Program-made: the position numbers and the translations under genes
DNA from: Labilibaculum euxinicum
GTDB lineage: Bacteria; Bacteroidota; Bacteroidia; Bacteroidales; Marinifilaceae
Length of the DNA stretch: 64,000 nucleotides
Assembly (NCBI RefSeq): GCF_009795715.1
Contig: NZ_WTCR01000005.1
Location: 62,001-126,000, forward strand
Reading direction: 5' to 3'
In this document: positions 11,976 through 14,305 of the stretch, one piece after another
How the letters are laid out: every line of letters begins with the position of its first letter
Position numbering within the stretch: the stretch's first letter is position 1
Notes under the pieces: model-generated
The model's input: only the letters and a program-made list of their open reading frames with translations
What the model was told of the DNA's origin: nothing
Databases searched by the model: none

Positions 11976-12785
11976 ATGAAACTCAATTACAAAAAACTTG
12001 GCAAAGGCCGCCCTTTACTAATTCTTCATGGTCTTTACGGCGCATCGGATAATTGGCTGACTATTGCCAAAGAGCTATCGAATAACTTCACGGTTTACAT
12101 TATTGATCAGAGAAACCACGGAGACTCTCCTCATGCCAACTCACATACTTATCAGGATTTAAAAGAAGATCTTCTGGAATTTATGAACGATCACAAAATT
12201 GAAAAGGCCATTTTACTTGGGCATTCGATGGGCGGGAAAACGGTTATGTTCTTTGCTGCCGATCATCCCGAAAGAGTAAGCAGTCTGCTTGTTGTGGATA
12301 TTGCTCCCAAAAACTACAGCAAAATTTCCGATTACGCCCCACAAACAATCGATCACTCCTGCATCGTTAAAGCAATGCTTAATTTGGATTTATCGCTTTA
12401 CAAAAACAGAACCGAAATTGATGCAAAATTAACAGAAAGTATAACCAGTAAACGTGTCAGACAATTTCTTCTTAAAAATTTGAAAAGAGACGAGAACAAA
12501 CAGTTTATCTGGAAACTAAATATTAAAACCATTAACGATTACTTACCTCAAATAATGGACGGTATTGATGGTGATCGTTTTGCAGAAGGCAAAGGAATCA
12601 CAGCATTTCCTGTTCTATTTATCCGCGGCGAAAAATCGAATTACATAAGCGATAACGACCACAATTTGATACGAACAATATTTCCAAAAGCAGAAATAAC
12701 AACCATTCCCAATGCCGGACATTGGGTGCATGCCGAACAGCCAAAACTACTGGTTAAAACTGTTGAATATTTTGCTTTGGATTAA
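11976..12785 (+). CDS. Alpha/beta-fold hydrolase (YbfF-like esterase group)
   Basis: From ATG 11976 the product is 269 residues and begins MKLNYKKLGKGRPLLILHGLYGASDNW, the oxyanion-hole region of the fold. The nucleophile elbow is LGHSMGGKT (Ser), Asp is probably in the RGEKSNYI region, and the catalytic His is in NAGHWVHAEQP. An open frame extends upstream to 11823 but overlaps pdxJ and its terminator, so the internal start is preferred. Substrate unknown. The gene's last 42 bp (12742-12783, coding KLLVKTVEYFALD) recur with 35 of 42 bases identical at 13103-13144, on the far side of a phased repeat array; its original terminator appears to be the hairpin at 13154-13176. Confidence 0.88.
   Translation: MKLNYKKLGKGRPLLILHGLYGASDNWLTIAKELSNNFTVYIIDQRNHGDSPHANSHTYQDLKEDLLEFMNDHKIEKAILLGHSMGGKTVMFFAADHPERVSSLLVVDIAPKNYSKISDYAPQTIDHSCIVKAMLNLDLSLYKNRTEIDAKLTESITSKRVRQFLLKNLKRDENKQFIWKLNIKTINDYLPQIMDGIDGDRFAEGKGITAFPVLFIRGEKSNYISDNDHNLIRTIFPKAEITTIPNAGHWVHAEQPKLLVKTVEYFALD
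12742..12783 (+). repeat. Gene-tail repeat, copy A (3' end of the hydrolase gene)
   Basis: 42 bp encoding the end of the hydrolase (KLLVKTVEYFALD). It matches 13103-13144 at 35 of 42 positions by direct comparison. Confidence 0.8.
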
Positions 12786-12812
12786 AGTGTGCTATTTCAG
12801 GAGAAGACACTC

Positions 12813-13036
12813 CCGTTCGTAAATTGACCATCTCTGTGCGCCGACTGAGGTCTTCCGTTTGGCATGGATGGACTTCCGTGCGCGTTGGAACCCTTTCCGT
12901 TCGGCAGTTTTGTGCTTCCGTGCGCAGGTTGAGATACTCCGTTCGGAGTGAATACCCTTCCGTTCGCGAACGGAACAAGTGAAAGTACGAACGGAACACT
13001 CGCCTTCACGTACGGAGAATTATTTTCAGGGAACGG
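12813..13036. repeat. 21-bp-phased CCGTnCG array with an inverted half
   Basis: Twelve cores of 7 bp occur at exact 21-bp steps. Forward cores (CCGTTCG, CTGTGCG, CCGTTTG, CCGTGCG and similar) start at 12813, 12834, 12855, 12876, 12897, 12918, 12939 and 12960. Inverted cores (CGAACGG, CGAACGG, CGTACGG, GGAACGG) start at 12967, 12988, 13009 and 13030. The two halves meet in the perfect 18-bp palindrome TTCCGTTCGCGAACGGAA (12958-12975). The ~12 bp between cores (plus two flanking T) are unrelated from unit to unit. Since 21 is a multiple of 3, heptad-like open frames (RTExxxL on one strand) appear on both strands, but they look like by-products. Composition is clearly more GC-rich than the surroundings. 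Confidence 0.9.
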
Positions 13037-13062
13037 AAAGAATCCGGAAGTGAAACAAATTG

Positions 13063-13094
13063 TGGGGACAGGCTACATTTGTTTGGGGACAGGC
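13063..13094 (+). repeat. Direct repeat TGGGGACAGGC x2, also 21 bp apart
   Basis: TGGGGACAGGC at 13063-13073 and 13084-13094, start to start 21 bp, immediately downstream of the CCGTnCG array and with the same spacing but an unrelated core. Confidence 0.75.
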
Positions 13095-13102
13095 AGAGCA
13101 AG

Positions 13103-13144
13103 CAAAACTATTGGTTATAACAGTGAAGTATTTTGTTTTGGATT
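13103..13144 (+). repeat. Gene-tail repeat, copy B
   Basis: Second copy of the hydrolase 3' end; in frame it would read KLLVITVKYFVLD, still recognisably protein-like, then continue without a stop at the equivalent place. It directly precedes the hairpin at 13154-13176. Confidence 0.8.
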
Positions 13145-13153
13145 CAATAAAAA

Positions 13154-13176
13154 ACCCGAAACGAATTCGTCTCGGG
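13154..13176. terminator. Hairpin terminator between hydrolase/array and lipoprotein gene
   Basis: CCCGAAACGA and CGTCTCGGG pair with one G-U-type mismatch. A-rich and T-rich flanks fit a bidirectional terminator between convergent genes. Confidence 0.7.
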
Positions 13177-13198
13177 GCTAAAATTTTCTTATTTCTTA

Positions 13199-14305
13199 TT
13201 ACCACTCACCACCAGCTTTTATAAACTGAGAACGAGCTTGAATATTAAAAGTGTAAATATCTCCTTGAAAAGGGTCAATACCATCTTCATACAAAAATGC
13301 AACGACCTTCACATAAAAATTATCTCCAAGAGATAAACCAAAATCACCTTTAGAATCTTCTTCAAGTGTCATTGATTGCAAAGCGTCAGCACTTGCCGGT
13401 TGCCAATTTGACGTAAATAACGGATTGTTCTCATCCTTTTCAGAATTTAACACCTGAACGTAGTAATATATATTCCCAGCGTCAAGAGCTTTCCATTTCA
13501 CCACCAATGACAATGCGCCACTTCCAGTTGTGTGTTCAGAATCCACTGACTGAAAACTTAAAGCTTCAATATCTTGATTATATATCTTCTCGTCTAACTT
13601 ATACTCTTCACCCGAATTCATTGTCAGTACAAATTTGACAAGTTTTTCTCCAGGGAAATTTTCAAGATACTCATTTGCATCAACTTCGTTAATTCTCCAA
13701 ACAGTTTCATCATTTGAATTTTGCGATTTAATTAAAGTAAAACTTTCATTTGAAGATATTTTTGCAACAGCACTTTTAATATTATCTCCCTTCACCTCAA
13801 AATCATATCGGTAACCACTAACAAAATCATCATTCTTTAAATAAACTTCCTTAACCACCGAAGCATCAGCAGTTACATCATTAAGTTCATTTATTTGAGT
13901 ATAGAAATCTCTGTTTCCGATGGTACTTTTTAAGAATATATGATCTCTTGTTGATGACTTGTCAATTTTCCACTCCTGAGAATTAATTATGGTCTCGTCA
14001 TCTATTACCAATGTATTATCATCCCCCAGACTCCAACTTCCTACCTTAACATCCCTGCGTCCACTAAATTCTTGCTTGTACAAATCACCACCACCATTAA
14101 ATTTATACACTAGAACTACATCGTTTTTTGAATAACTATCATCAATAAACGTACTTGAGTACCAGTATTTATTGGTTAAATCGGAAGATTTAAACTCGAA
14201 AACGTCCTCTTCTCCACCTCCACTACTGCTTCCACAGGAGGTTAAAAACAGGCTTCCAGCAATCAATATCGCAAAGGACAATTTATTATAAAATGAAGTA
14301 TTCAT
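13199..14305 (-). CDS. Predicted lipoprotein of unknown function
   Basis: 368 residues with a lipoprotein signal (FLTSC at residues ~20-24) followed by a Ser/Gly linker (SSSGGGEED). The N-terminal half (~35-135) resembles a lipocalin-like strand set that often begins with KYWYSST-type motifs; the C-terminal half contains two strand-rich blocks (~150-230 and ~240-365), the last looking like a fibronectin-type segment (GALSLVVKWKALDAGNIYYYVQV). No enzyme motif is visible. It stands alone, with a short AT-rich spacer upstream holding the palindrome CTATTGTACAATAG (14391-14404). Confidence 0.75.
   Translation of the reverse strand: MNTSFYNKLSFAILIAGSLFLTSCGSSSGGGEEDVFEFKSSDLTNKYWYSSTFIDDSYSKNDVVLVYKFNGGGDLYKQEFSGRRDVKVGSWSLGDDNTLVIDDETIINSQEWKIDKSSTRDHIFLKSTIGNRDFYTQINELNDVTADASVVKEVYLKNDDFVSGYRYDFEVKGDNIKSAVAKISSNESFTLIKSQNSNDETVWRINEVDANEYLENFPGEKLVKFVLTMNSGEEYKLDEKIYNQDIEALSFQSVDSEHTTGSGALSLVVKWKALDAGNIYYYVQVLNSEKDENNPLFTSNWQPASADALQSMTLEEDSKGDFGLSLGDNFYVKVVAFLYEDGIDPFQGDIYTFNIQARSQFIKAGGEW

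Follow-up and report, generated by a model that had tools for sequence, protein, structure and literature searches.

A two-armed, helically phased repeat array in Labilibaculum euxinicum and its relatives beside genes of a family of ∼245-aa proteins

Plasmid iterons are repeats of about 21 bp situated next to the gene for their presumed binding protein. In RAYT (TnpA-REP) systems, as sections of two papers describe them (PMC6006769, PMC3116915), cognate REP/REPIN repeats stand beside the gene, with one repeat type per gene, further copies elsewhere in the genome, and co-evolution of gene and repeat. The DnaA-box arrays of origins, according to parts of PMC4285127, consist of several short sites whose helical spacing governs oligomer assembly and which co-evolve with their protein. 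CRISPR arrays combine a conserved repeat, given as 24 to 48 bp in a section of PMC3733652, with a regular step and unlike spacers. Features resembling each of these occur in the element described here, a copy of which lies in the window, that is, the whole 64,000-nucleotide stretch of DNA analyzed, from the genome of Labilibaculum euxinicum (5,055,185 bases on 39 contigs). The literature covered also included papers on H-NS (PMC5418058), REP (PMC3733652), and Labilibaculum (PMC5760507).

The window array comprises 12 cores in exact 21-bp steps, nine of which match CCGTNCG exactly and three with one mismatch (CTGTGCG at 12834, CCGTTTG at 12855, and, on its own strand, CCGTTCC at 13030). This layout, with eight direct and four inverted cores, agrees to the base with what a first-pass annotation of the window had reported, as do the perfect palindrome between the arms and the higher GC content, which is 46 to 48% in the array versus 30 to 40% in neighboring segments (Table 1). 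The base preceding TCCGT is a T in seven of nine units, so the core is nearer to TTCCGTNCG. Exact CCGTNCG occurs at 17 sites in the window against 4.35 expected, a count reached in 0 of 100 shuffles, and among same-strand core pairs (at most one mismatch) 10 are exactly 21 bp apart, 2 are 20 bp apart, and none are 19, 22, or 23 bp apart. This excess and this spacing rule out a chance origin. An ordinary tandem repeat was likewise rejected, because Tandem Repeats Finder reports no repeat there with the score lowered to 40, in keeping with the earlier statement that the array is not a satellite made by recent duplication. The Rfam scan gave no match at the array, which removes a known RNA family as its identity; the only match was manA-II at 13148 to 13288, with 24.2 bits against a cutoff of 100. 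Across 11 aligned copies (see below), 88.9% of the cells of the palindrome pair and two of its nine pairs show changes on both sides; the innermost pair is broken in 4 of the 11 copies, and the covariation score is only mildly above that of shuffles, being reached by 38 of 500.

Table 1. Coordinates of the array, its parts, and nearby features (window positions, unless another genome is named)
Feature	Position	Strand	Remarks
Plus-strand cores	starts 12813, 12834, 12855, 12876, 12897, 12918, 12939, 12960	+	
Minus-strand cores	starts 12967, 12988, 13009, 13030	-	
Complete phased array with both arms, solo copy (site A)	12812..13037	.	orthologous copies in G002, G007, and G008; truncated in G001
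Long arm: eight direct cores, 21-bp steps, position-specific linkers	12812..12966	+	linkers match those of BB29 in order, 69/91 bases
Palindrome TTCCGTTCGCGAACGGAA, joining the arms	12958..12975	.	perfect, 18 bp
Short arm: four inverted cores	12967..13037	-	one mismatch in the outermost core
Alpha/beta hydrolase gene (Abhydrolase_1)	11976..12785	+	Pfam E 5.6e-32; 27 bp separate its end from the first core
Degenerate duplicate of the hydrolase 3′ end, on the far side of the array	13083..13147	+	50/65 identical, E 1e-10
Terminator-like hairpin common to the convergent genes	13155..13176	-	consensus match only
Convergent lipoprotein-like gene, 368 aa	13199..14305	-	no Pfam match; lipoprotein judged by eye from the N terminus
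Second array kind (42-bp period)	G005 C2 ∼236400-236700; G006 C170; G328 C168, C209; G000 C3, C11		

The array occupies what we call site A, after a hydrolase gene whose orthologs are present in 9/9 genomes of the genus; by Pfam, its neighbors in the window are PdxJ, the hydrolase, and one gene without a match. Site A is empty in G003 and G004, where the hydrolase stop leads directly to the terminator, and in G005 and G006 it holds a different array with a 42-bp period. This second array kind, with a core near GTATGCTTTGCAAGCTTACA, was observed in 11 of 14 genomes searched, and none of the 12 loci checked had a gene of the protein family introduced below nearby. In the window's genome (G000) and in G005, two copies of the hydrolase end flank site A and enclose the two different array kinds, the duplicate beyond the array being a degenerate 65 bp in the former and 74 bp in the latter. 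A similar piece was recognized by eye in G006 (L083), where the BLAST match spans only 11 bp. Between the array and this duplicate in the window, TGGGGACAGGC is present in two copies (13063 to 13073 and 13084 to 13094), the second of which enters the duplicate.

The gapped pattern suggested in the first-pass annotation, CCGTNCG-N14-CCGTNCG, was found in 19 of 59 related genomes searched, with many of the matches being other repeats, and the 21-bp spacing recurs at further loci and in further strains. That annotation had named identical arrays with conserved linkers, or a spacing kept nowhere else, as outcomes contrary to its reading; in the sense meant, neither was found. Copies with the same unit order occur at other sites in Labilibaculum and Ancylomarina, and 11 copies were resolved into their successive units, read from the palindrome. 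In addition to those at site A, there are gene-linked copies in G000, G002, G006, and Ancylomarina 16SWW (L165) and, in more divergent form, in G024 and G327, as well as copies between divergent genes, one of them presumably rsmI as named from its sequence, at a position that we call site R in G024, G034, and G327. In BB29, which we equate with G328 because their arrays agree in sequence, the array is kept beside a gene reduced to what appear, by eye, to be its last codons, and contig NZ_JAUCMW010000002.1 (Labilibaculum sp. K2S) carries the same array as G002. A sequence-only model of the element matched in 20 of the 56 family genomes at E values up to 0.001; the weaker matches include arrays whose cores are related and perhaps also repeats of other kinds, while the strong ones, selected by stricter filters, fall in about one to three places per genome. 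A pattern scan of public genomes returned at least 111 stretches, and 3 of the 16 inspected (L120, L165, and L170) were the true element; five viral contigs with a CCGTKCG triple contained repeats with conserved linkers.

The second copy in the genome of L. euxinicum, on contig C7, lies directly after a 248-aa gene (gene B) and its terminator. Homologs of this protein were detected in 22 of the 56 family genomes, with up to nine matches each when fragments are counted; of 395 genomes sampled across the phylum, one has them, that of L. euxinicum itself. Searches of Pfam, NCBIfam, PHROGs, PADLOC, and PDB sequences gave no convincing match for the family. Among the 23 members scanned, one matched Cas8e (E of 3.4e-5) and one PDC-S24 (E of 5e-4) in PADLOC, and one matched Cse1 in Pfam at 0.0029; these are probably chance matches, in the case of Cas8e/Cse1 among helical proteins. 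A phage or plasmid origin was rejected, since plasmids and phages held no homolog of the one family member searched and viral contigs none for the family profile.

To define the relation between gene and array, 94 loci were used (30 from the family search, 57 further places from the same search, 6 from the phylum sample, and L165), with table rows containing internal stops and most fragments left out, and 82 were retained after near-duplicate removal. An array was called where the 450 bp after the stop codon showed 20- to 22- or 41- to 43-bp periodicity at z ≥ 3 relative to dinucleotide shuffles. A phased array lay 3′ of 77/82 distinct family genes, compared to 2/80 upstream and 2/82 at twelve control lags. 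The five loci below the threshold were L247 (2.6), L253 (2.8), L275 (1.1), L251 (0.7), and the fragment L265 (-0.8). In the 46 window genes that served as a control, z ≥ 3 was reached in three, two of which are neighbors of the array itself; these genes were relied on because an alternative control (14/95 at z ≥ 3) used loci that had been chosen for arrays. The adjacency of gene and array and their cognate relation are nearly certain in our judgment. A protein that reads the cores, as proposed earlier, would predict an array-linked protein family, and such a family exists. Relatedness among the family genes is mirrored in the repeat versions that they carry, a pattern that suggests a two-part system; no description of such protein-linked phased arrays was found in the open-access literature searched. 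From these sequence comparisons, the window array is probably a solo, gene-less array of putative recognition sites, the gene-linked form of which lies immediately 3′ of a gene of this strongly paralogous family of ∼245-aa proteins.

In the window array, most columns of the linkers are nearly free of information, and the earlier claim that linkers are unrelated between units holds inside a single array. It fails between copies, where the same linkers recur in the same order. The linkers of the window array and of BB29 match at 69 of 91 bases, and no order of the units other than the true one reaches this value among the 5040 possible (mean, 33.7). The true order also ranks first of 5040 for the gene-linked array of G024 compared to BB29; for the other copies its rank is 1/720 (G000B), 2/720 (G002B), 4/720 (G006B), and only 15/120 (G327). 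In deep copies, 13 to 26% of core positions differ, versus 29 to 49% of linker positions, and in the three nearest site A copies cores and linkers each differ at 1 to 2%. Thus, the proposal that core and spacing are held and linkers are not applies to the deep copies insofar as cores differ less, but the linkers are themselves conserved by position. The site A array is 98.2% identical to those of G002 and G008, against 88.5% and 84.9% at the third codon positions of the hydrolase gene; the corresponding pairs of values are 98.7% and 98.4% for G007 and 68% and 56% for G001. The high identity of the site A arrays could result from recent exchange between strains.

The cores vary among arrays (TTCCGTTCG, TTCCGCAC, TTCCGTAAC, TGTCTTG, TGTCCGGGA, CATGTT, GCGAAGG, CCGATAG, CAACTGG, and others), and neighbors in the protein tree mostly have similar ones. 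Core sharing, defined as at least four phased hits and counted over ordered pairs, was found in 48/60 pairs with at least 80% protein identity, 162/578 pairs at 50 to 79%, and 118/5214 pairs below 50%. The 507 counted steps include 319 of 21 bp and 120 of 20 bp; this tally is partly circular, because the search used to choose the cores favors 20- to 22-bp steps, and its independent support is the adjacency in 77/82 loci. A spacing of about two helical turns, as first suggested for the window alone, is the constant feature across unlike cores. The steps also bear on whether the array could be a coding repeat of 7-residue units, for which one might cite the open frames of 52 to 81 codons that cross it in several frames. 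Steps of 20 bp and 41 bp are common in related arrays and break the frame, and cores changed to CGAACTGA put stops into one frame (by reading), so a coding heptad repeat was rejected as extremely improbable.

In two Ancylomarina genomes, new cores are shared between the gene-linked array and the unlinked array at site R. The gene array of G024 has eight C[AG]AACTG cores and two of the old ACGG type, with a ratio of 5:4 at site R; that of G327 has seven CAACGG cores and no old ones, with 6:3 at site R. The five old-core arrays (window A, G000B, G002B, 16SWW, and BB29) have six to nine old-type cores and zero to three with AACTG. Because the linkers of the G024 gene array keep their order, its core change is not explained by unit duplication, whereas a shared reader would explain it. 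The G327 case is weaker, as the linkers of its gene array are poorly conserved; moreover, its site R linkers alternate in a way that suggests duplication of unit pairs, so that the uniform cores need no shared reader. A second paralog (contig C39, core GCGAAGG) has a solo array elsewhere in the L. euxinicum genome that is 84% identical to its gene-linked array over 196 bp. At L334 (G014 C1, ∼2304200), a TTCCGTGACAGGAGGATTGGC array is accompanied by an inverted AACGGAA arm in a genome in which the family protein was not found.

If the arrays are recognition sites, each protein, or a complex containing it, would bind its own core in double-stranded DNA. The phase of ∼21 bp corresponds to about two turns of B-DNA and would place the cores on one face, where bound subunits could touch; the two inverted arms would meet head to head at the palindrome, and solo arrays would provide further docking sites. 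We consider recognition of DNA by the encoded protein to be probable; assembly on one face, the simplest account of the constant step, may be true or false with about equal chance. As to function, we would guess, tentatively, at a nucleoprotein site carried on the chromosome that has spread either along with its gene or from it. Several observations run against this reading. G007 and G008 retain array A without a close homolog of gene B (best, 53%), the BB29 array persists beside a mere remnant of the gene, and the G014 array occurs where no family protein was found. Site R of G034 is mixed (five old cores and eight CAACGG) in a genome with only a distant family member. Some arrays lie before the terminator and would thus be in mRNA, and the conservation at site A could be a product of recent exchange.

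The arrays might instead act as RNA, with a transcript of repeated motifs, sometimes a ladder of core-core stems, that is bound by the protein of the adjacent gene or controls its mRNA. Two layouts occur, and arrays that precede a terminator would be part of the mRNA: among 46 arrays of low-identity members, the terminator was after the array in 12, before it in 9, and not found in 25. In the window's clade, the array is beyond the terminator in 23 of 31 cases, with one terminator after the array and seven not found. At least three cores in each orientation are present in 20/31 arrays of this clade and 11/46 of the low-identity members. Of 31 two-armed arrays (window included), 10 fold at a z of -3 or less, but the 44 arrays without two clear arms have a median of -1.09, with 7/44 at -3 or less; RNA structure is thus no general property of the arrays. 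The stem ladder envisaged for the window's transcript gained slight support, with fold z scores of -2.3 (plus strand) and -0.6 (minus strand). Against RNA action, site R is flanked by divergent genes, and a step of ∼21 bp suits two turns of B-DNA better than A-form RNA. On balance, action as RNA appears unlikely.

A selfish mobile element is equally doubtful; here the protein would resemble a transposase, and the array would be its end or a non-autonomous derivative, as with RAYT and REPIN. Gene and array do vary in presence at a collinear position. In G005 and G007, the sequence at the gene-B site agrees with that of G002 over 197 bp and passes from there into the next gene, as it does in G008, whereas ∼2.4 kb containing the gene and array intervenes in G002. 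Solo arrays exist, and array A lies between two copies of the hydrolase end. Against such an element, a clean target duplication was not seen, strong matches are confined to the few places per genome noted above, and no histidine column is shared by at least half of 81 family proteins, which leaves no HUH motif. The family protein may nevertheless have a catalytic fold. Variable genes adjoin the gene-B arrays, including an AAA ATPase and an HNH protein (Pfam) in G000 (L010, 3327 to 5953) and, in Ancylomarina 16SWW (L165, 3333 to 7141), genes that resemble, by eye, a type I restriction system. The gene-B site may be an integration hotspot.

Units do duplicate, as the extra units of the G001 array and the alternating linkers at site R of G327 indicate, and the genome holds other periodic repeats. 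A functionless, degenerate minisatellite kept by chance and unit duplication could draw on both facts. This account is already disfavored, and we give it little credence, given the 77/82 adjacency, the covariation of core and protein, and the change of core in G024 with linkers kept.

A scan of 400 kb sampled from the genome plus the window yielded seven clusters at lags of 20, 21, 41, 42, 62, or 63 bp versus one at twelve control lags, with a cluster threshold of 58/105 below which the window's own array falls. The seven include two simple repeats, two arrays 5′ of ∼245-aa genes matching DUF6261 (PF19775), the solo array of the second paralog, and two clusters of no assigned kind. DUF6261 was present in 5 of 247 genomes searched, giving 17 loci (10 in this genome and 7 in four others). 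A phased array (z ≥ 3) lay upstream in 10/17 and downstream in 1/17, with 0 and 1 at control lags; the ten positives contain the two discovery loci, L398 and L404, without which the count is 8/15. No match to DUF6261 was found by Pfam in 23 members of the window-array family, and the hhalign probability was 0.1; common ancestry gained no support, as no homology was detected. In the open-access literature searched, the one paper that mentions DUF6261 deals with streptococci. An intergenic 41-bp tandem repeat with conserved units occurs at L371 (16585 to 16835; G000 C22), with no family gene among the listed open reading frames.

We tentatively suggest, at slightly less than an even chance, a class of two-part systems of Bacteroidota not yet described, in which a ∼245-aa protein from one of at least two families (the unnamed one and DUF6261) is paired with its own helically phased array. 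The short core would be re-specified as genes diverge, and a single genome would carry around a dozen orthogonal pairs, along with solo arrays that keep to the same specificity in trans. If the proteins read the arrays, there would be dozens of natural protein-sequence pairs in which the core is changed and the spacing kept, in one case with the linkers kept, which would offer a direct way to learn a recognition code. On the same premise, the family would open a first way into DUF6261 and the phased repeats of Bacteroidota, and would provide a comparison case for the evolution of RAYTs and REPINs with an apparently unrelated protein.

The likeness to described systems is partial in each case. 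As with plasmid iterons, repeats of ∼21 bp stand beside a gene, but here the linker sequence does not recur from unit to unit, the array follows the gene on its 3′ side, and the Pfam matches of 23 members include no replication initiator family, nor was there a plasmid match. CRISPR identity was rejected, because the core is 7 to 9 bp and the unit 21 bp, below the repeat size of CRISPR arrays; the 12- to 14-bp linkers are inherited between copies, and the second arm is inverted. As regards cas genes beside the array, the adjacent family gene gave the Cas8e and Cse1 matches noted above, each in one of 23 members. DnaA boxes belong to another protein family, and the sites described here differ between paralogs of one genome. 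DUF6261 proteins share the size of ∼245 aa and phased 41/42-bp arrays, but with the array on the 5′ side and without detectable homology. RAYT/REPIN systems have in common with the present family the cognate repeats beside the gene, found here on one side only, in 77/82 loci. The family proteins lack the HUH and tyrosine motif of RAYTs, and in place of a hairpin pair there is a 7- to 9-bp core in a helically phased array, confined to one side of the gene and accompanied by few solo copies.
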